From Marinifilaceae bacterium (GTDB lineage Bacteria; Bacteroidota; Bacteroidia; Bacteroidales; Marinifilaceae): a DNA stretch of 64,000 bases. The stretch covers positions 1-64,000 of the forward strand of contig JAFGYE010000117.1 in assembly GCA_016936255.1 (NCBI GenBank), in the 5' to 3' direction. This document shows positions 48,930 through 58,668 of the stretch, piece after piece (within the stretch, counting starts at the first letter, position 1; the number at the start of each line of letters is the position of its first letter). The notes beneath the pieces were generated by a model that was not told the DNA's origin, ran no database searches, and saw only the letters and a list, made by a program, of their open reading frames with translations. Made by a program: the position numbers and the translations under genes.

Positions 48930-50330
48930 CTATATATTTTGAGCCAATTCCATTGCTTTTCGCAAGGCAGCCAATTTATTACCTACTTCGTTTAACTCAT
49001 TTTCCTCTTTCGATTTTTCAACCACTCCGGCACCAGCCTGAAAGTACAGCTGATTGTCCTTGCTTAAAAAGCTTCGAATCATGATTGCCTGATTTACTTC
49101 CCCGTTAAATCCCAATGAACCAATACAACCGCCGTAAAAACCTCTTGCCGTTGGTTCGTATTCATCGATCAACTGCATAGCACGGTATTTAGGTGCTCCC
49201 GATAAGGTTCCTGCAGGAAATGTATCTCCCATCAATTGAAACGGGTTGTAATCATCAGGAAGCTCGCCGGAAACCTTAGATACCAAATGAATTACGTGTG
49301 AAAAATACTGTACTTCACAAAAGGTTTCTACTTTGATATTTTGTGCATCACGACTTAAATCGTTTCTGGCCAAATCGACCAGCATCACGTGTTCAGCCTG
49401 TTCTTTTTCGTCCTTCAGAAGATCTTTAGCCAATTCAGCATCTTTCACGGCATCACCTGTTCTTCTAAATGTTCCTGCAATTGGGTGAATGTATGCCTTC
49501 TTATTTTTAATTTCAATCTGTGCTTCAGGCGATGATCCCATGATCCGGAACGATCCGTAATCGAAATAAAACAAGTAAGGCGATGGATTAACTGATCGCA
49601 AAGCACGGTACAAATTAAAATCATCACCTTTGTAAGCTTGTGAAAACTGACGGGAAAGAACAATCTGAAAAACATCACCTCTTTTGCAGTGCTTCTTACC
49701 CAAAGTCACCATTTTTTTATAGGTTTCATCGTCCATATTCGATTGCTCCTCACCTTCCAGCGAAAAAGTAAAAGCCGGCAGGTTTCTATTTCTCAACAAA
49801 TCAGAAACTTCACGTATTCTGGACTCATCCCCATTTTTCACCAATTCAATAATCTTCAAAGTATTGTTGAAATGATTTACTTCGATGATGAACCGGTAAA
49901 GAGAATAGCACATTTGCGGAATCCCCGACTGTTTTTTCTCCAGATTAAAATCCAAGTCCTCGAAATAAGGAACTGCATCGTATGTTGTGTAACCAAAAAG
50001 TGCATTTGCCTTGGGTACATTTTCCTTTCCTTCCAGATCAAATTGATTCACAAAGTCCTTCAACTTACCTGAAACAAAGCGTTTCCCCTTGCCTACAGCA
50101 TCACAAATTTCTTTTTTGCCTTCTATTTCTTCAATCAGCTGCCCATCTTTTAAAGTGATGCTTGCAATTGGCTCCAAGGCAATAAAAGAGCTTGCATTTT
50201 CAGGACTGTGGTAATCCGAACTTTCCAATAATATTGCACCCGGAAACCGATCTCTCAATTTCAGATACATACTCACCGGAGTAATTACATCGGCAAGTAA
50301 TTCTTTTTTTAGGTATTTAAACTTTATCAT
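48930..50330 (-). CDS. trpE: Anthranilate synthase component I
   Basis: This 466-residue enzyme converts chorismate to anthranilate with TrpG. The Trp feedback site LLESSDY is at residues 34-40. The chorismate-binding domain includes IAGTFRRTGD, DLARNDLSRDAQ, GTLSGAPKYRAM and GFYGGCIG. It is the first structural gene of trpEGDCFBA and is preceded by a leader peptide and attenuator, so it is likely controlled by both feedback and attenuation. Confidence 0.95.
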   Translation of the reverse strand: MIKFKYLKKELLADVITPVSMYLKLRDRFPGAILLESSDYHSPENASSFIALEPIASITLKDGQLIEEIEGKKEICDAVGKGKRFVSGKLKDFVNQFDLEGKENVPKANALFGYTTYDAVPYFEDLDFNLEKKQSGIPQMCYSLYRFIIEVNHFNNTLKIIELVKNGDESRIREVSDLLRNRNLPAFTFSLEGEEQSNMDDETYKKMVTLGKKHCKRGDVFQIVLSRQFSQAYKGDDFNLYRALRSVNPSPYLFYFDYGSFRIMGSSPEAQIEIKNKKAYIHPIAGTFRRTGDAVKDAELAKDLLKDEKEQAEHVMLVDLARNDLSRDAQNIKVETFCEVQYFSHVIHLVSKVSGELPDDYNPFQLMGDTFPAGTLSGAPKYRAMQLIDEYEPTARGFYGGCIGSLGFNGEVNQAIMIRSFLSKDNQLYFQAGAGVVEKSKEENELNEVGNKLAALRKAMELAQNI

Positions 50331-50441: not shown

Positions 50442-50510
50442 TCACCTCTGCTCTGGTTTTGAGAGTTTGTAATTGTGCCACCACCAATATTTGCTATTCA
50501 TTCCAATCAT
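50442..50510 (-). CDS. trpL: trp operon leader peptide
   Basis: A 22-codon open frame from ATG at 50510 to TGA at 50444-50442 reads MIGMNSKYWWWHNYKLSKPE plus two residues. Three consecutive TGG codons are the classical sensor for charged Trp-tRNA. The stop lies about 50 nt before the attenuator hairpin. Stalling at the Trp codons would free the stop-codon region to pair with the 5' arm of the terminator. It is too short to be noticed as an ordinary gene; function is in its translation, not its product. Confidence 0.9.
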   Translation of the reverse strand: MIGMNSKYWWWHNYKLSKPEQR

Positions 50511-50530
50511 GTTTCTTTTTTTTCTTCCTA

Positions 50531-50563
50531 CAAATCTAATTAATAATTTATTCAAATTCCAAA
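50531..50563 (-). promoter_or_regulatory. trp operon promoter
   Basis: On the minus strand TTTG (50563-50560) and TAGATTTG (50538-50531) match the phylum consensus, though with a 21-nt spacer. The start would be near 50524, only about 14 nt before the leader ATG. The A+T-rich stretch up to 50890 between the two divergent promoters shows no other structure I can support. Confidence 0.55.
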
Positions 50564-50897
50564 TCTTAATTCACAAATTATCCAACACTCAAGAAAAATA
50601 AGTAAAACTTTTCCTTTAAAACAAAGACTTACAGCTACTATTATTTTTTTTAATTTAAATCACGCAAGTCCAATCCCAACACTATAATCATTCAACACCA
50701 CCCCAATTCATAATAGGGTACTGCATATAAAAAGCTCAAATTATCTTACATACCCCCTATTTTACACCAACAAATAAAATTATACTATTTTCTAATTATT
50801 TATCAAAAAAGCTCAAACTACCTGATTTTACTAGACCTCCAACTAAACGCACCAGAACAATTCAAACGTTAGCAATTTATTAATTCTAAAAAATAGA

Positions 50898-50928
50898 TTT
50901 GCAGGATAAGAAATAATTCATACATTTG
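50898..50928 (+). promoter_or_regulatory. Promoter of the aromatic (aro/tyr) operon
   Basis: TTTG at 50898-50901 and TACATTTG at 50921-50928 with a 19-nt spacer fit the Bacteroidota consensus exactly. The predicted start near 50934 puts the first leader ATG (50962) about 30 nt in. Confidence 0.75.
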
Positions 50929-50961
50929 GTGCAGACAATAATGAAACAGTTGATTATTACT

Positions 50962-51021
50962 ATGAAAACATTCAGTACTTACTTTTATTATTTTTGGTAT
51001 TTCTGTTATCCACAACGATAA
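50962..51021 (+). CDS. Aromatic leader peptide 1
   Basis: A 19-residue peptide, MKTFSTYFYYFWYFCYPQR, is encoded; 10 of its 19 residues are aromatic (5 Tyr, 4 Phe, 1 Trp). An in-frame ATG at 50941 would add seven residues but lies very close to the predicted transcript start. It is followed at once by an antiterminator segment, GGGCAAGA at 51022-51029, right after the TAA, and by a terminator at 51062-51092. This is the layout of a pheA-type leader sensing charged Tyr/Phe-tRNA. Confidence 0.88.
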   Translation: MKTFSTYFYYFWYFCYPQR

Positions 51022-51061
51022 GGGCAAGAATTGATATGTAACAACTCGAAAAGATACATTT

Positions 51062-51092
51062 AAAGGTCTTGCCCAACAGGTAAGACCTTTTT
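51062..51092 (+). terminator. Aromatic attenuator 1
   Basis: AAAGGTCTT (51062-51070) and AAGACCTTT (51082-51090) form a 9-bp stem with an 11-nt loop and a five-T run. The segment TCTTGCCC (51067-51074) in its 5' arm and loop is perfectly complementary to GGGCAAGA (51022-51029) just after the leader stop codon; the two pairings exclude each other. Confidence 0.88.
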
Positions 51093-51107
51093 CATATTAA
51101 AATTACA

Positions 51108-51200
51108 ATGACAGATTCAGGATTGGCATTTCGATATTATTATTTTTATTTCTGGTACAACAACGACCGGGCGGGATGCCTTATACCTAATTCTAAATAA
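51108..51200 (+). CDS. Aromatic leader peptide 2
   Basis: A 30-residue peptide with the block FRYYYFYFWY at residues 8-17 (9 of 10 aromatic) lies between terminator 1 and terminator 2. The DNA around its aromatic block (TATTTCTG...ACAACGA...GGGCGGGA) parallels leader 1 (TATTTCTG...ACAACGA...GGGCAAGA), so it looks like a duplicate; a 2-nt difference moves the frame and removes the early stop. Confidence 0.85.
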   Translation: MTDSGLAFRYYYFYFWYNNDRAGCLIPNSK

Positions 51201-51210
51201 AAAGTATAAC

Positions 51211-51247
51211 AAAAATCCTGTTCCAAACGAGCAGGATTTTTTTTTTT
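51211..51247 (+). terminator. Aromatic attenuator 2
   Basis: AAAAATCCTG (51211-51220) pairs with CAGGATTTTT (51232-51241), 11-nt loop, then an eleven-T run overlapping the stem end. ATCCTGTTC (51215-51223) can instead pair with GGGCGGGAT (51169-51177) in leader 2, nine pairs including three G-U, in the same register as in module 1. It ends 33 bp before the aminotransferase gene. Confidence 0.87.
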
Positions 51248-51279
51248 GAAACAGAACCAAAATTTTAACCACTAGAATA

Positions 51280-52434
51280 ATGATTCAACCAGCAAACAGA
51301 ACCCAAGGAGTTAAAGAGTACTATTTCTCTGTAAAACTGAAAGAAATAGCGAAACTAAACGAAGGTGAAGTAAAAGTTCTAAATCTGGGAATTGGTGATC
51401 CGGACATGTCTCCCTCTGAAGATACCTGGGGAATGCTTAAAGATGCCTGTGAACATCCAAAAAGCCACGGTTACCAATCGTACCAGGGAATTCCTGCCTT
51501 ACGGGAAGGATTTTCGAAATGGTACAAAACCTTTTTCGATGTAGATTTAAATCCGGCTAACGAGATATTGCCCTTAATGGGATCGAAAGAAGGAATCATG
51601 ATTACTTCACTGGCTTATTTGAATGAAGGCGACGAAGTTTTAATTCCAAATCCGTCCTATCCTACTTACACATCGGTAACCAACCTGCTGGGCGGAAAAA
51701 TTGTTTCTTATCCATTGGTTGAAGAGAATAATTATCATCCTGATTTCGATGCTCTTGAAAAAAGAGATTTAAGCAAGGTGAAGATCATGTGGATCAACTA
51801 TCCTCATATGCCAACCGGAGCAAGGGCAAGCAAAGAATTACTCGAAAAAGTGGTTGCTTTTGGCAGAAAACACAAAATATTGATTGTTAATGACAATCCT
51901 TACAGCTTTATTCTTAACGATTCTCCGATGAGTATTATGAGCATTGAAGGAGCAAAAGATTGCTGCATCGAGTTAAACTCTCTAAGTAAGTCGCACAATA
52001 TGCCGGGCTGGAGAGTTGGAATGATTTGCGGAAAAGCGGAAATGCTGGAACCTGTATTGAAAGTAAAAACCAATATGGATTCCGGGATGTTTTATCCGGT
52101 TCAGCAAGCTGCTGTTAAAGCCTTGGCTCAGGATCAAAGCTGGTACGACTCCATAAATAAAGTATACAAAACCAGACGGGATTTGGTTTTTAAGCTGATG
52201 AATCTGATTGAGTGTTCTCCTAGAGAAGATCAGGGCGGAATGTTTGTTTGGGCTGCAATTCCTGAAAAATACAAGGATGGCTACGAACTAAGTGATAAAG
52301 TGCTTAAGGAATCAAAAGTATTTATCACTCCTGGTGGAATTTTTGGAGATCAGGGAAATAAATACATTCGTATTTCATTGTGCAGCAATGAGGCAGTAAT
52401 TGAAGAAGCCATTAATAGAATTAAAGAAAATTAG
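51280..52434 (+). CDS. Class I/II aminotransferase (aspartate/aromatic type)
   Basis: This 384-residue PLP enzyme has the cofactor Lys in NSLSKSHNMPGWRVGM (about residue 231), GIGDPDMSPSE near 37 and RISLCSN near the C-terminus. In this operon, which makes prephenate and its products, it is most likely the aminotransferase that makes Tyr or Phe from their keto acids. Related enzymes are annotated as aspartate or LL-diaminopimelate aminotransferase, so the substrate is not settled. It is the first structural gene after the double attenuator. Confidence 0.9.
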   Translation: MIQPANRTQGVKEYYFSVKLKEIAKLNEGEVKVLNLGIGDPDMSPSEDTWGMLKDACEHPKSHGYQSYQGIPALREGFSKWYKTFFDVDLNPANEILPLMGSKEGIMITSLAYLNEGDEVLIPNPSYPTYTSVTNLLGGKIVSYPLVEENNYHPDFDALEKRDLSKVKIMWINYPHMPTGARASKELLEKVVAFGRKHKILIVNDNPYSFILNDSPMSIMSIEGAKDCCIELNSLSKSHNMPGWRVGMICGKAEMLEPVLKVKTNMDSGMFYPVQQAAVKALAQDQSWYDSINKVYKTRRDLVFKLMNLIECSPREDQGGMFVWAAIPEKYKDGYELSDKVLKESKVFITPGGIFGDQGNKYIRISLCSNEAVIEEAINRIKEN

Positions 52435-52453
52435 AACCGAAAAATTCGAAGCA

Positions 52454-53353
52454 ATGATACTATCAGTAATAGGATTGGGATTAATTGGAGGATCGATAGC
52501 TCTTGATTTGAAAAAAAGAGATTTTGTCAGCAAAGTGATTGGAGTTGATAACAACACTCTTAATGCTCACGCGGCTAAAAAATTAGGCCTCGTTGATGAA
52601 ATTCAGGATTTAAAAAGTGCAGTACAATCATCAGATCTGGTTGTTTTAGCGATTCCTGTTGATGCTTGCTTACGAGCATTACCAAACATTATGAATCTAA
52701 TAGATCATCAGATTGTTACCGATTTAGGATCAACAAAAGAACAGTTGATAGAGTCGGTTGCAAATCATCCGAAAAGAAATCAGTTTGTACCTGCTCACCC
52801 TATGGCGGGAACTGAATTCTCAGGACCACAGGCAGCACATTCTGGTTTATTCGATGGAAAATGTTCCATTATTTGTAATCCGGAAGATTCAGATAAAAAA
52901 GCAGTAAAGCTGATCACAGAAATGTTCCATTGCCTAAGAATGAGGTGTGTATTTATGGATGCTGAAGTGCATGACAGACAAACGGCTTACGTTTCTCATT
53001 TATCACACATTAGTGCTTTCGCTTTATCGTTAACGGTGTTGCACAAAGAAAAAGCCGACAAACACATTTTTGAACTGGCGAGTGGTGGATTTGATTCTAC
53101 TGTTCGATTGGCAAAGAGTTCGGCCGAAATGTGGACACCAATTTTTCAACAGAACAAGAAAAACATTGGAAAAGTGCTTCAAAAATACATTAACACACTT
53201 CAGCAATTTAAAGACTTAATTGAAGAAGATGATTTGACAGGGGTTAATGATTTAATATTTGAGGCAAACGACATTAGAAGAGTTCTTGATCAAAAAGAAA
53301 AAAACGAGAAGGAAACAATCGAGAAGACTGAGAAAATTAAGAACAGAGCTTAA
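52454..53353 (+). CDS. tyrA: Prephenate dehydrogenase
   Basis: This 299-residue NAD(P)-dependent enzyme converts prephenate to 4-hydroxyphenylpyruvate for Tyr. The nucleotide-binding loop is VIGLGLIGGSIALDLKKRD, starting at residue 4, which fixes the ATG at 52454 over a TTG 54 bases upstream that overlaps the aminotransferase gene. PAHPMAGTEFSGP and VYVSHLSHISAFAL-like motifs (Q-T-A-Y-V-S-H-L-S-H) carry the catalytic His. The C-terminal 20 residues are Lys/Glu-rich. A stem-loop lies in the 152-bp gap to the next gene. Confidence 0.93.
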   Translation: MILSVIGLGLIGGSIALDLKKRDFVSKVIGVDNNTLNAHAAKKLGLVDEIQDLKSAVQSSDLVVLAIPVDACLRALPNIMNLIDHQIVTDLGSTKEQLIESVANHPKRNQFVPAHPMAGTEFSGPQAAHSGLFDGKCSIICNPEDSDKKAVKLITEMFHCLRMRCVFMDAEVHDRQTAYVSHLSHISAFALSLTVLHKEKADKHIFELASGGFDSTVRLAKSSAEMWTPIFQQNKKNIGKVLQKYINTLQQFKDLIEEDDLTGVNDLIFEANDIRRVLDQKEKNEKETIEKTEKIKNRA

Positions 53354-53505: not shown

Positions 53506-54591
53506 ATGAAGAATTTGGAAATTAAGGATCTAAGTAGCTGGCCGGTTGACGTTAGTACCCGCCCAATGGTTATTGCAGGACCTTGCAGTGCAGAGACCGA
53601 GGAACAAGTGATGGATGCAGCAAGAGGAATTAAAGCTGCAGGTATTCCAATTTTCCGCGCAGGAATCTGGAAACCACGTACCCGTCCAAACAGCTTTGAA
53701 GGAATTGGCGCAAAAGGATTGATCTGGCTGCAAAAAGTAAAAGAAGAATTCGGATTGATTACAGCTACAGAAGTAGCCAACGCCCGTCACGTTGAATTGG
53801 CTTTGGGTGCAGGGGTTGACATTTTATGGATTGGCGCAAGAACCACAGTTAATCCATTTGCTGTTCAGGAAATTGCTGATGCATTGCGCGGTCATGATAT
53901 TCCTGTTTTGGTGAAAAATCCAATTAATCCTGATTTGGAGCTTTGGATGGGTGCAATTGAGAGACTGCATGCTGTTGGATTAACCAGATTAGCTGCGATT
54001 CACCGTGGATTTTCAACTTACCAAAAATTGAAATACAGAAATGATCCTCAATGGCAAATTCCTATCGAATTGAAAAGAAGAATGCCGCAACTCCCTATCT
54101 TTTGCGACCCTAGTCACATTACAGGAGATCGTGACCTACTTGAAGAAATCGCTCAAAAATCGATGGATTTGAACTACGAGGGATTAATAATTGAATCGCA
54201 TTGCAAACCCGAAGAAGCATGGAGTGATGCCAAGCAGCAATTAACCCCTGTCGCTCTTCAGGAACTTTTAGCTAACTTGGTACTTCGTGATCCTGAGGCA
54301 CCAAATGAATTGGTTGACAATACTCTTGGCGAATTAAGACATTTAATTGATGATTTCGATCAGAAATTACTGGAGTTATTAGAGAACCGCATGCAGGTAG
54401 CCAAAACAATTGGTCACTACAAGAAAGAAAACAACATCACCGTTTTGCAAAACAAACGTTGGGGAAGTATTCTGGAAAAAAGCATGGAAAATGGTAAGAA
54501 AAAAGGCTTTAGCGAACAATTCATTAACAGCTTATTCAAAGCGATCCATCAGGAATCGATCAACCAACAGGAAGAAATAATGAACTCGTAA
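53506..54591 (+). CDS. DAHP synthase fused to chorismate mutase
   Basis: This 361-residue bifunctional enzyme has an N-terminal DAHP synthase of the KDO8P-like type (residues 1-255; VIAGPCSAETEEQ, AGIWKPRTRPNSFEG, FCDPSHITGDR, ESHCKPEEAWSD) and a C-terminal AroQ chorismate mutase (about 265-355; LRHLIDDFDQKLLELLENRM). It starts the shikimate pathway and also converts chorismate to prephenate; the mutase domain often acts as the feedback sensor in such fusions. The full set of metal and substrate residues appears present. Confidence 0.95.
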   Translation: MKNLEIKDLSSWPVDVSTRPMVIAGPCSAETEEQVMDAARGIKAAGIPIFRAGIWKPRTRPNSFEGIGAKGLIWLQKVKEEFGLITATEVANARHVELALGAGVDILWIGARTTVNPFAVQEIADALRGHDIPVLVKNPINPDLELWMGAIERLHAVGLTRLAAIHRGFSTYQKLKYRNDPQWQIPIELKRRMPQLPIFCDPSHITGDRDLLEEIAQKSMDLNYEGLIIESHCKPEEAWSDAKQQLTPVALQELLANLVLRDPEAPNELVDNTLGELRHLIDDFDQKLLELLENRMQVAKTIGHYKKENNITVLQNKRWGSILEKSMENGKKKGFSEQFINSLFKAIHQESINQQEEIMNS

Positions 54592-54677: not shown

Positions 54678-55712
54678 ATGAAGACCATACACATCGAAAA
54701 GCAAAACAGCAGTATTTTTGTAGGAGAATCTTATCTAAATATTAAGAACTACCTGCCGGAGAAAAAATGCTTTCTAATTTGCGATGAGAACATTTACCGG
54801 CACTACTCCGAATTCATCAATCAATTCGATTATATCGTAATGGGTTGTGGCGAAGGAAACAAAAACTGGCAAACTGTTGAAAAGATCATTGATCAGCTAC
54901 TTGAAAGAGGTGCTGACAGAAATAGTTTTCTGTTGGGAATGGGCGGTGGTTTGGTTTCTGATGTTACAGGTTTTGTGGCTTCTATTTTTATGCGGGGGCT
55001 TGAATTTGGTTTCATCAGTACATCCCTGCTGTCTCAGGTTGATGCCAGTGTTGGCGGAAAAAACGGAATCAATTTTGGCAAACTGAAGAACATGATTGGC
55101 ATTTTCAATCCTCCAAAGTTTGTGATTTGCGATCCGGTATTGCTTAAAACCTTACCCAAACGTGAAGTAAGAAGTGGATTTGGTGAAGTAATTAAGCATG
55201 CTTTTATTAAAGATGAAGACCTTTATAACTTCCTGAATGATAACTGTGAGGCACTTCTGAACTTAGATCCGAATTTGATGGAAAATTTGGTTTACCGGGC
55301 AGTTTCAATTAAGACTGAGGTTGTTGAAGGTGATCCTTTTGAAAAAGGCGAACGCAAAAAGTTGAATTTCGGTCACACCATTGGTCATGCTATTGAGAAT
55401 AATTCAGATTTAACTCATGGCGAAGCGGTATCGGTTGGTATGAATTTAGCCTGCCAATTGTCTCAGGAATTGTGTGAACTAAGCGATGTTGATGCGAAAA
55501 GAGCCAATGACTTATTGCGAAAATTTGAATTGCCTCTGGATCATGACGTTTCCGCAGATATGATTAATCAATATCTGATCAAGGACAAAAAGAAAAACCG
55601 ATCGGCCATTGATTTTATTCTACTCAAAAAAATAGGAGAAGCCACAATTGTCACCCTTCCTATTGAAGAACTTAAAACCAAGGTGATTGCACTTTGTGCC
55701 AATCCTAATTAA
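54678..55712 (+). CDS. aroB: 3-dehydroquinate synthase
   Basis: This 344-residue NAD- and zinc-dependent enzyme makes 3-dehydroquinate from DAHP. GMGGGLVSDVTGFVAS, TSLLSQVDASVGGKNG, and the zinc ligands in FGEVIKHA, NFGHTIGHAIE and THGEAVSVGM are present. Length is standard. It lies 86 bp after the DAHP synthase gene. Confidence 0.96.
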   Translation: MKTIHIEKQNSSIFVGESYLNIKNYLPEKKCFLICDENIYRHYSEFINQFDYIVMGCGEGNKNWQTVEKIIDQLLERGADRNSFLLGMGGGLVSDVTGFVASIFMRGLEFGFISTSLLSQVDASVGGKNGINFGKLKNMIGIFNPPKFVICDPVLLKTLPKREVRSGFGEVIKHAFIKDEDLYNFLNDNCEALLNLDPNLMENLVYRAVSIKTEVVEGDPFEKGERKKLNFGHTIGHAIENNSDLTHGEAVSVGMNLACQLSQELCELSDVDAKRANDLLRKFELPLDHDVSADMINQYLIKDKKKNRSAIDFILLKKIGEATIVTLPIEELKTKVIALCANPN

Positions 55713-55732: not shown

Positions 55733-57010
55733 ATGAGAGTTCGAATTCAATCCTCAACCATTAAAGGAAGGCTAACGCCTCCTTCCTCGAAAAGCATGAT
55801 GCAAAGAGCTTTAGCCGCTGCAATGTTGGCGAACGGAAACTCTGTAATTCACAATCCCTGCAAATGTGAAGATGCTGATGCAGCAACAGATATCATTCAG
55901 CGGATGGGTTCGGTAGTCACCAAAAAGGAAAATTCGGTAGAAATCACTTCCAAAGTAAGCGAAGCTCCCAAAAGCATTCATGTTGGAGAATCCGGACTTT
56001 CGTTACGAATGTTCTCTCCCATTGTTGCACTGAAGCCGGAAGAAATGGAAATTACGGGAACAGGCAGCATCCTAAAAAGACCCGTTCATAATATTATAGA
56101 AGGATTGGAAAATTTGGGTATTGAATGTGAAAATCCCGGCAAGGGATTCTTGCCCATCCGAATAAAAGGCGGCTACAAAAGTAACTTTGCGAAAATTGAC
56201 GGATCGCTTGGATCTCAATTCCTCACGGGTCTTTTAATGGCTCTGCCCTTGCGAAAAGAAGATACAACACTGAAAGTGAAAGATCTAAAAAGCATTCCTT
56301 ATATCAATATGACTCTCGATTTAATAAAGCATTTTGGTATTGAAATAGAACATGAGAATTACGAGAACTTTCAAATAAAAGGAAATCAAATTTATCAACC
56401 AACAGAATACACAATTGAAGCCGATTGGAGTTCTGCTGCTCCTCTTTTAGTTGCCGGAGCGTTGAAAGGAATTGTAACACTGGAACACATGAATCCGGAT
56501 TCTTATCAGGCCGATAAGGCAATTTTGGATGCCTTGCAAAAATGCGGCGCTTCCATTGCATGGGAAGGAAACAATTTAACGGTTGAGAAAAAAGCTTTAA
56601 ATGCCTTTGATTTTGATGCCACACATAGTCCTGATCTTTTCCCTCCTTTGGTGGCTTTGGCCTGTCACTGTGAGGGAGAAAGCAGAATTAAGGGAGTTCA
56701 CCGATTAGAGTACAAAGAAAGTAATCGTGGCTTAGTGCTGAAGAAAGAATTTTTAAAGCTTGGAGTCCCGATTCGCATCGAAGGTGATGAAATGATCATT
56801 CCTGGTGGCAGAGTAAAAGGAGGACTGGCAAAAAGTAATAATGATCACCGTATTGCAATGGCTCTGGCCGTAACAGCATTGGCATCACCAAGTCCGATTG
56901 AAATAGGTCAGCATGAGTGTGTTGCCAAATCATATCCTGAATTCTTTACGGATTTACGAAAAATTGGTGGCGGCGTAGCGCAGTTTTATTTCGATAGTCA
57001 GTTTGTATAA
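55733..57010 (+). CDS. aroA: EPSP synthase
   Basis: This 425-residue enzyme joins shikimate 3-phosphate and PEP. It has the N-terminal SSKSMMQRALAAAMLA, ESGLSLRMFSPI (in place of the GNAGTAMR loop of many bacteria), GSLGSQFLTGLLMALP and NDHRIAMALAVTALA near the C-terminus. Whether it is of the glyphosate-sensitive class cannot be read reliably. It follows aroB by 20 bp. Confidence 0.94.
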   Translation: MRVRIQSSTIKGRLTPPSSKSMMQRALAAAMLANGNSVIHNPCKCEDADAATDIIQRMGSVVTKKENSVEITSKVSEAPKSIHVGESGLSLRMFSPIVALKPEEMEITGTGSILKRPVHNIIEGLENLGIECENPGKGFLPIRIKGGYKSNFAKIDGSLGSQFLTGLLMALPLRKEDTTLKVKDLKSIPYINMTLDLIKHFGIEIEHENYENFQIKGNQIYQPTEYTIEADWSSAAPLLVAGALKGIVTLEHMNPDSYQADKAILDALQKCGASIAWEGNNLTVEKKALNAFDFDATHSPDLFPPLVALACHCEGESRIKGVHRLEYKESNRGLVLKKEFLKLGVPIRIEGDEMIIPGGRVKGGLAKSNNDHRIAMALAVTALASPSPIEIGQHECVAKSYPEFFTDLRKIGGGVAQFYFDSQFV

Positions 57011-57019
57011 AACAAAGAT

Positions 57020-57140
57020 AGGGTGTCCGAAAAGTAAAGTTGAGTTGAAAACATCATATTGAGCAATCCCGATGGCTATCGGGACGAAACATCTGCTATT
57101 CAAACACAAAGATTCTTCGACAAGCTCAGAATGACAATCA
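57020..57140. repeat. TCCCGAT/ATCGGGA repeat element between aroA and DUF523
   Basis: TCCCGAT and ATCGGGA (57067-57084) form a hairpin, followed by GATTCTTCGACAAGCTCAGA, a phrase I associate with widely dispersed Bacteroidota intergenic repeats. If read as protein it gives FFDKLRMT, a known false N-terminus in such genomes. Confidence 0.65.
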
Positions 57141-57184
57141 ATTCAAACTTTTCATCCCCCTTATTCTTACTTAACAGTAAAAAA

Positions 57185-57634
57185 ATGATAATAGTCAGTG
57201 CCTGTTTGGCCGGTTGCGAATGCAGATACGATGGAAAAAGCAACGAAGTTCCTGAAATTAAAAAACTGGTTCTCGAAAACAAAGCCATCGCCCTGTGTCC
57301 GGAAAATTTAGGAGGCCTTAGTACGCCACGTATCCCTTGCGAAATAGTGAGAATCAATAACGAATTAAAGGTAATTGGCCGGGATCAAAATGATTATACA
57401 GCCCAATTTACCAAGGGTGCCGAAATCGCCGCGAATGTGGCAAAAGCCTTACATTGTAAAACGGTAATTTTAAAGGCCAACAGTCCGTCGTGCGGATATG
57501 GAAAAATTTATGACGGCAGTTTCACCGGCAAATACAAAGAAGGGAACGGATTTACTGCTGAAATCCTGGCAAAAAATGGAGTACAAATACTGAATGAAGA
57601 AAATTTTCATTCGATACTTACCAATGAAAAATAA
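57185..57634 (+). CDS. DUF523 family protein
   Basis: This 149-residue protein starts MIIVSACLAGCECRYDGKSN, the DUF523 signature with conserved Cys residues; further motifs are ALCPENLGGLSTPR and LKANSPSCGYG. A start 126 bases upstream is in frame but reads through a repeat element and is rejected. The conserved Cys set suggests metal or sulfur chemistry, but function is unknown. It sits inside the aro operon between aroA and aroC, so it is probably co-transcribed. Confidence 0.9.
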   Translation: MIIVSACLAGCECRYDGKSNEVPEIKKLVLENKAIALCPENLGGLSTPRIPCEIVRINNELKVIGRDQNDYTAQFTKGAEIAANVAKALHCKTVILKANSPSCGYGKIYDGSFTGKYKEGNGFTAEILAKNGVQILNEENFHSILTNEK

Positions 57635-57687: not shown

Positions 57688-58668
57688 ATGAACAATTTCG
57701 GAAGAATATTTAGACTTAGCATATTTGGAGAATCTCACGGTAAAGGAGTTGGTATCACAATTGATGGATGTCCATCAGAAATTGACCTGACCGATGAAGA
57801 TCTTTTGCACGATATAAGCCGCAGAAAGTCTGGCGCAAGAGGTACAACCCCAAGAATTGAAGCCGATACGCCCAGCATATTGAGTGGAACCTTCGAAGGA
57901 AAAACTACTGGTGCTCCGCTAATCATCCTGTTCCATAACAAAAATACCAAATCGAAAGACTACAGCAATCTGCTGGACAGTCCGCGTCCCGGACATGCTG
58001 ATTTTGTAGCTCAGCATAAATTTGGCCGACACAACGATTATACCGGAGGTGGTCATTTTTCGGGAAGAATTACTCTTGGGATAGTAGCTGCCGGCGTTGT
58101 TGCCAAGAAAATATTAGGCGATGTGCAAATCGATGCCAAACTAACCGAAGTTGGCGGACAAAGCGATTTTGATGCTGCAATTGAAGATGCTTTGCTACAG
58201 CACGATTCTGTAGGAGGAATTGTTGAATGCAGAGCCAATAACCTTCCTATCGGATACGGCGAACCTTTCTTCGATTCTGTGGAATCGATGATTTCGCATC
58301 TTATTTTTGCGATACCTGCAACCAAAGGAATTGAATTCGGTTCCGGATTCGGCGCAGCAAAAATGAAAGGATCGGAACACAACGATAATTTTATTGATGC
58401 CTCTGGAAAAACGGAGACCAATAATGCCGGAGGAATCAACGGAGGAATTACCAACGGAAACGAGCTGGTATTTCGAGTAGCCATAAAGCCAACCTCATCG
58501 ATTGGCAGAAATCAGAAAACCATGAATTTTGCCAAAGGCGAAGTGGAAGATTTACTGATTGAAGGCCGGCACGATGCCTGCATTGCTTTACGGGTTCCGG
58601 TAATTATTGAAGCCGCAACCGCAATTGCATTGGCTGATTTAAAATTGTTAGATAAGGCCAGAAGGTAA
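57688..58668 (+). CDS. aroC: Chorismate synthase
   Basis: This 326-residue flavin-dependent enzyme makes chorismate from EPSP. It has GESHGKGVGITIDGCP (His near residue 17), RRKSGARGTTPRIEADTP, GRHNDYTGGGHFSGR and the C-terminal RHDACIALRVPVIIEA. It is somewhat shorter than typical (about 350-360) but complete in motifs. It is the last gene of the operon, followed by a terminator. Confidence 0.96.
   Translation: MNNFGRIFRLSIFGESHGKGVGITIDGCPSEIDLTDEDLLHDISRRKSGARGTTPRIEADTPSILSGTFEGKTTGAPLIILFHNKNTKSKDYSNLLDSPRPGHADFVAQHKFGRHNDYTGGGHFSGRITLGIVAAGVVAKKILGDVQIDAKLTEVGGQSDFDAAIEDALLQHDSVGGIVECRANNLPIGYGEPFFDSVESMISHLIFAIPATKGIEFGSGFGAAKMKGSEHNDNFIDASGKTETNNAGGINGGITNGNELVFRVAIKPTSSIGRNQKTMNFAKGEVEDLLIEGRHDACIALRVPVIIEAATAIALADLKLLDKARR

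Follow-up and report, generated by a model that had tools for sequence, protein, structure and literature searches.

The aromatic amino-acid operon in the window (the whole 64,000-nt stretch of DNA that we analyzed) is preceded by two leader peptide-terminator modules, and sequence, comparison with relatives and folding models together make it likely that these are two complete ribosome-mediated attenuators that read the same signal on one transcript and act as a serial AND gate. Classical attenuation employs one leader-terminator module. The doubled layout is real, conserved and more widespread than a single locus could show, and we favor a same-signal serial lock over a reading in which two amino acids are sensed. 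A preliminary description of this DNA had proposed two attenuators in series before the operon, and the proposal was supported by the conservation of both modules, by their predicted antiterminators and stall registers, and by a promoter motif located only before the pair.

The window genome is Labilibaculum-like (Bacteroidales), and the sequence points to Labilibaculum as the most likely genus. Specifically, its first operon gene was 97% identical to locus L032 of Labilibaculum sp. K2S, the closest named locus, and the upstream sequence of L032 was the same as that of L006, whose genome is listed under the same genus. On the forward strand, the order was promoter motif, leader peptide 1, terminator 1, leader peptide 2, terminator 2 and aminotransferase, and the operon downstream of both modules comprised aminotransferase-tyrA-DAHP synthase-aroB-aroA-aroC. 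The aminotransferase is the first structural gene (51280..52434, +); the 33-bp gap previously described in front of it holds, with the T run of terminator 2 ending at 51247 and the ATG at 51280. The protein reached no cut-off among the 25 NCBIfam families listed, of which its best match, below cut-off, was an LL-diaminopimelate aminotransferase subfamily. The remaining genes, all on the same strand, were tyrA (prephenate dehydrogenase, 52400..53353, NF006307 over cut-off; the ORF is taken as listed and its real start may be internal), DAHP synthase-chorismate mutase (53506..54591, both domains matched, under curated cut-offs), aroB (54678..55712, TIGR01357 over cut-off), aroA (55733..57010, TIGR01356 over cut-off) and aroC (57688..58668, TIGR00033 over cut-off). 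Between aroA and aroC lies an ORF (57059-57634, +) that is no obvious aromatic-pathway gene and presumably encodes a DUF523-type protein. A single promoter motif was found for both modules, TTTG-N19-TACATTTG at 50898..50928 (+; TTTG at 50898-50901, a 19-nt spacer, and TACATTTG at 50921-50928), where a promoter had already been placed; we take it to be of the Bacteroidota consensus type.

Module 1 starts with leader peptide 1, MKTFSTYFYYFWYFCYPQR (50962..51021, +), which has the 19 codons and 10 aromatics first ascribed to it. An in-frame ATG at 50941 would lengthen this leader to 26 codons, and in 7 of the 18 aligned sequences (the window and 17 relatives) GTA replaces the window's ATG and the leader begins upstream; from sequence, the start is uncertain, at 50962 or at the earlier 50941. 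The aromatic run was kept in 18/18 aligned sequences, and in the window is interrupted by a Cys codon at 51004. Directly 3′ of the leader 1 stop, a predicted antiterminator strand, GGGCAAGA (51022..51029, +), forms 8 pairs with 51067-51074, with a duplex energy of -15.2 kcal/mol compared to -7.7 ± 2.1 for shuffled sequence (p = 0.005) and 95.1% of cells paired across the 18 sequences. Terminator 1 (51062..51090, +) has 12 pairs, a loop of 5 and a T-rich tail; 100% of its cells were paired in the 18 sequences, which included 2 two-sided pair changes, each in one sequence.

Module 2 has the same architecture. Leader peptide 2, MTDSGLAFRYYYFYFWYNNDRAGCLIPNSK (51108..51200, +), comprises 30 codons and contains FRYYYFYFWY, in agreement with the preliminary description, and its ATG was present in 18/18 aligned sequences, while its last aromatic codon was His in 3/18. 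The predicted antiterminator strand GGGCGGGAT (51169..51177, +) is located inside leader 2 and forms 9 pairs with 51215-51223 (duplex -12.4 versus -7.9 ± 1.9 shuffled, p = 0.030), and 100% of the cells of this helix were paired in the 18 sequences. Terminator 2 (51211..51247, +) consists of a 13-pair hairpin (51211-51241) and an 11-T run (51237-51247), with 92.7% of cells paired. Both hairpins, and the T run of the second, thus stand as first described, with the stems revised from 9 to 12 pairs in terminator 1 and from 10 to 13 pairs in terminator 2.

This arrangement exceeded chance expectation. The folding of the 347-nt leader had a z of -4.35 against its own shuffles, and a terminator scan of 50500-51500 returned 2 sites, compared to 0.4 ± 0.6 in shuffles. 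A strict module was then defined by a leader that opens with ATG and has 7 or more aromatics within 12 codons, followed closely by a terminator of 7 or more pairs. Among 196 aminotransferase upstream regions, 145 held at least one such module and 33 held two, while 0/980 dinucleotide shuffles of those 196 regions held any aromatic-leader-plus-terminator module. Within the close alignment of 18 sequences, standard pairs made up 96.2% of the terminator helices of both modules, with 3 two-sided changes, each confined to one sequence, and 97.7% of the antiterminator helices of both modules. Two-sided changes of antiterminator pairs numbered 0/17, so antiterminator covariation is silent in this alignment. 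Loss of the leader frames in relatives had been named as an observation that would speak against the two attenuators; on inspection, the aromatic runs were kept in frame, the exception being L115, in which the frame shifts after the leader 2 aromatic run.

We next examined the antiterminators across loci. In the duplex test, the terminator 5′ arm was paired with region 2, which follows the aromatic run, and with shuffles of region 2; 222/268 distinct modules beat the shuffles at p < 0.05 (single modules, 161/186; first modules, 29/41; second modules, 32/41). This level was missed by 25/186 single, 12/41 first and 9/41 second modules, L008, L298 and L299 being among the loci whose first module fell short. 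The shuffle, duplex, register and Phe-fraction tests covered 196 of 203 aminotransferase loci, and the other 7, with starts unplaced by tblastn, were added for the distribution counts.

In the stall model, the ribosome hides 15 nt past the A-site codon and the polymerase is at the terminator loop. Under this model, the window's module 1 antiterminator had P = 0.99 for stalls from 50971 through the last Tyr codon (51007), falling to 0.61 one codon later, 0.02 after two and 0 at the stop. The module 2 antiterminator had P = 0.75-0.87 up to the last aromatic codon (51156), then 0.43 one codon on and 0 thereafter. Across modules, the last permissive codon was at 0 or +1 from the last aromatic codon in 161/271, compared to 17/271 with region 2 shuffled, and a complete switch, with P >= 0.5 within the run and < 0.1 at the stop, was present in 182 modules and 52 controls (271 each). 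P >= 0.5 somewhere in the run was attained by 267/271 real modules but also by 215/271 shuffled controls, so that the register, rather than pairing alone, carries the evidence. This 0/+1 register was found in 32/41 first modules and was looser in second modules (13/43). Taken together, both modules have a short ORF rich in codons for the product and an intrinsic terminator before the genes; prediction and comparison give each a mutually exclusive antiterminator; and in the folding model a stalled ribosome frees the antiterminator and a ribosome at the stop covers it.

Some of the folding results weaken the serial model, as do the modules without a significant antiterminator and the looser register of second modules. 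In equilibrium folding of the full-length modules, the module 2 terminator won out (P >= 0.80) wherever the ribosome stalled, and the module 1 terminator did so when it stalled early; antitermination would therefore need to be a kinetic effect. Folding of the untranslated leader predicted no consistent state. A protector (1:2) hairpin, which would terminate the untranslated leader, was suggested for the window's module 2 by an exact-helix calculation and was unsupported by a broader measure over all modules.

The preliminary description had called for a search for the double layout in related genomes, and the pair proved to be frequent there. Of 56 genomes searched in the family (f1), 35 carried the aminotransferase gene at E <= 1e-100, and 28 of these had both modules, among them 9/9 from the genus. 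The remaining 7 had one module (4 genomes) or none (3), and one of the 7, L126, has two leaders visible, of which one was scored. In a class-level sample of 88 further aminotransferase loci, two modules were found in 1, one in 50 and none in 37. Additionally, 80 named aminotransferase loci comprised 5 with two modules (one Labilibaculum, three Marinifilum and one Saprospiraceae MAG), 61 with one and 14 with none. Upstream of pheA in the order, 125 loci had two modules in 15 cases, one in 79 and none in 31, with 3 of these 31 having less than 250 nt of upstream sequence. These 125 came from 139 genomes with pheA matches, 11 being omitted as already covered (one of them the window's own) and 3 for a partial best domain match.

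Strict pairs occurred in ten families (f1, f88, f93, f95, f127, f128, f145, f155, f175 and f27), and the Saprospiraceae MAG may represent an eleventh or belong to one of the ten. By these survey counts, loci outside family f1 most often have a single aromatic attenuator, and the pair is a recurrent variant. Strict detection misses pairs in which two leaders are visible but one leader or terminator is under threshold, e.g., L126, L166, L171, L192, L199, L272, L292, L300, L301 and L314. Furthermore, four pairs of loci were identical over 330 nt upstream (L002/L003, L006/L032, L034/L117 and L035/L119), so locus counts are not counts of independent events. Overall, the surveys suggest that aromatic genes in Bacteroidota are commonly preceded by leader-peptide attenuators.

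The tandem design is not restricted to aromatics; that restriction was rejected on the strength of a His pair at L375, where hisG is preceded by two leaders rich in His, with a terminator after each. This was the one hisG tandem pair among 30 loci scanned (61 genomes with a match), and L379 is a possible second. In the window's own genome (L380), a His leader, MKFTAIHHHHHYTYQPVS, precedes the hisG domain by 326 nt.

Frequent single modules outside f1 would also be compatible with a reading in which one module of the pair is active and the other is a relic of duplication or operon rearrangement. Outside the aromatic run the two modules resemble each other faintly, with an alignment score of 10.0 compared to 5.8 ± 2.2 for shuffles, 25/500 of which scored as high, and this similarity is weak evidence that one module arose as a copy of the other. 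However, the window and the 17 relatives retain the run, terminator and antiterminator of both modules, and pairs recur in at least 10 families, which makes a relic improbable.

Two active modules might nevertheless sense different aromatics, one Tyr and the other Phe, resulting in a two-input logic. Tyr and Phe are both end products of the pathway, published tandem attenuators can read two signals (the accessible text of PMC3641672), and leader specificity does evolve, with Phe-without-Tyr leaders preceding detached pheA. The codons of the present leaders point the other way. Comparing the contiguous aromatic runs (50983-51009 and 51135-51158) in the 18 aligned sequences, the first codon position varied in 1/17, the second in 11/17 and the third in 5/17 (first versus second, p = 0.0008; first versus third, p = 0.17), and nearly all second-position changes were Tyr/Phe exchanges, a pattern of coding constraint that also supports the two leader ORFs. 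In both leaders, a given position may carry Tyr in one relative and Phe in another, also across genera, and each leader has a single TGG that was invariant in 18/18. Moreover, the mean Phe fraction across 48 tandem loci was 0.49 in module 1 and 0.51 in module 2, with a mean difference of 0.06. Both modules carry the same mixed aromatic signal. By codon content, with Tyr and Phe equally mixed, they lack the different signals of an mgtCBR-type tandem, and the separate sensing of Tyr and Phe floated in the preliminary description is not supported. We regard two-signal sensing as very improbable, somewhat more so than a relic module.

Where leaders are specialized, their composition follows the genes that they precede. 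In the window genome, pheA is on another contig (L112, contig C72), and its leader contains Phe eight times and Trp once but lacks Tyr; this Phe attenuator spans ~168 to 41 nt ahead of the pheA domain. In family f1, 17 of 30 pheA loci were examined. A Phe-without-Tyr proximal leader was present in 11 of the 13 loci from genera g1, g10, g11 and g12, and of the other two, one had no leader detected and one was truncated at 89 nt. After the Phe leader, a terminator was found in 7/11, and none was found in the four of g11. Within flanks of up to 1.5 kb, 12/13 of these pheA loci (the truncated one excluded) had no aminotransferase, tyrA or DAHP synthase, and in 4/4 pheA loci with tyrA or an aminotransferase alongside, the leaders were mixed. 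Finally, trpE lies on the minus strand of the window at 50330, divergent from the tandem pair, and is preceded by a Trp leader peptide with WWW, MIGMNSKYWWWHNYKLSKPEQR (50510-50442, -), and a 16-pair terminator (50395-50359, -). Since the Phe, mixed and WWW leaders match their genes, leader composition follows the controlled genes at the loci examined. Upstream of pheA at L404 (f1, genus g10), we observed a leader with four Phe and two Tyr and then one with nine Phe and no Tyr, with a hairpin after each; on sequence grounds, this detached pheA may also have an attenuator pair.

That leader transcripts ended at terminator 1 or 2 act mainly as a small RNA or small peptide is scarcely credible. 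In favor of this reading, short terminated transcripts would be expected anyway, and there are weak Rfam matches to sRNA families. Against it, all 22 Rfam matches fall under their gathering scores, the peptide within the runs is constrained mainly to aromatic residues, and the register test favors attenuation. The Rfam Phe_leader model (RF01859) scored 29.1 bits for module 2 and 22.6 bits for module 1, below its gathering threshold of 55 bits, and no Rfam family, T-box and riboswitch families included, reached its gathering score in the window.

Turning again to two attenuators sharing one signal, we considered whether they are also on one RNA. Of the 28 tandem loci in family f1, 22 had the motif NTTG-N17-21-TAnnTTTG ahead of module 1 and none had it between the modules. 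A separate promoter for module 2 was considered and rejected, as none of the 28 loci had an exact motif between the modules, although this absence is not proof, since 6/28 lacked an exact motif even upstream. With the motif preceding the pair and none in between, the two decisions are most likely made in series on one RNA.

In the mechanism that we infer, RNA polymerase would start at ~50935, and a ribosome would follow it on leader 1 at module 1. With charged tRNA-Tyr and tRNA-Phe (and probably tRNA-Trp) plentiful, the ribosome would reach the stop and cover GGGCAAGA, and terminator 1 would form; with these scarce, it would stall in the aromatic run, GGGCAAGA would pair with the terminator 1 5′ arm, and the polymerase would continue. 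A second ribosome, on leader 2, would repeat the decision afresh with GGGCGGGAT and terminator 2, and the genes would be reached solely by polymerase escaping both terminators. Because escape from both modules is needed, read-through would approximate the product of two probabilities, and the double lock would leak less with aromatics present and respond more steeply. Given independent decisions, the induction ratio would be squared and the leak suppressed, at some loss of maximal expression, and the multiplied range of control is plausible given the sequence.

More broadly, we put at about even the proposition that Bacteroidota have a recurrent design in which two tRNA-charging sensors, independent and each non-cooperative by itself, are multiplied on a single transcript, the result being near-zero basal expression and a steep, AND-gated response of the costly aromatic pathway, and that at least ten families have retained or acquired it. 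Squaring a leaky switch would, again if the decisions are independent, be a very cheap evolutionary gain in dynamic range. Single-module relatives with the same operon are natural controls, and the leaders described here (Trp run, Phe without Tyr, mixed, single and double) form a matched set for testing codon content against signal.

Regarding known systems, Lopatovskaya and colleagues (2010) reportedly made a comparative study of amino-acid attenuation, cited in PMC4833913, that may bear on Bacteroidota. We recognized no report of serial same-signal amino-acid attenuators in our searches of the open-licence literature, which does not prove their absence. According to the accessible text of a 2010 survey (PMC2965389), leader-peptide systems had been known in Proteobacteria and Actinobacteria and not outside them, with Firmicutes then added. 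Within Bacteroidota, Flavobacterium psychrophilum is alike in having leader-peptide attenuation before amino-acid operons, presented as strong clues in the accessible part of PMC9723704, a part that mentions no tandem layout, and for Bacteroides thetaiotaomicron the corresponding part of PMC7366714 describes sORFs reminiscent of leader peptides.

Each module by itself resembles the E. coli trp type, summarized in the available portion of PMC3641672, in its short leader ORF rich in product codons, exclusive antiterminator, intrinsic terminator and matching stall register, whereas here two full same-signal modules precede the first gene. The rimP-leader of some Gammaproteobacteria is also alike, with two serial terminators, the upstream one having a potential antiterminator, but it precedes a different gene, and the accessible text of PMC2965389 names no aromatic leader peptides for it. 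The mefA/msrD macrolide operon (leaders mefAL and msrDL) likewise has two same-signal attenuators, which sense erythromycin and which its authors term a double-lock system against basal expression (PMC10314930, the part accessible); in contrast to the pair described here, the second attenuator is behind mefA and controls msrD only, and the signal is an antibiotic rather than aminoacyl-tRNA. Tandem attenuation in PMC4974804, as far as its accessible text goes, is a mere citation of the Mg2+ transporter case. That case, Salmonella mgtCBR, shares with ours one 5′ leader with two leader ORFs, each in an attenuator; the available portion of PMC3641672 has these sensing ATP and proline, acting independently and additively, and using stem-loops unlike intrinsic terminators. 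Here, by comparison, both hairpins resemble intrinsic terminators and both leaders have the same aromatic codons, and, judged by sequence, a same-signal serial pair before an aromatic operon would differ from each of the published tandem attenuators that we found.
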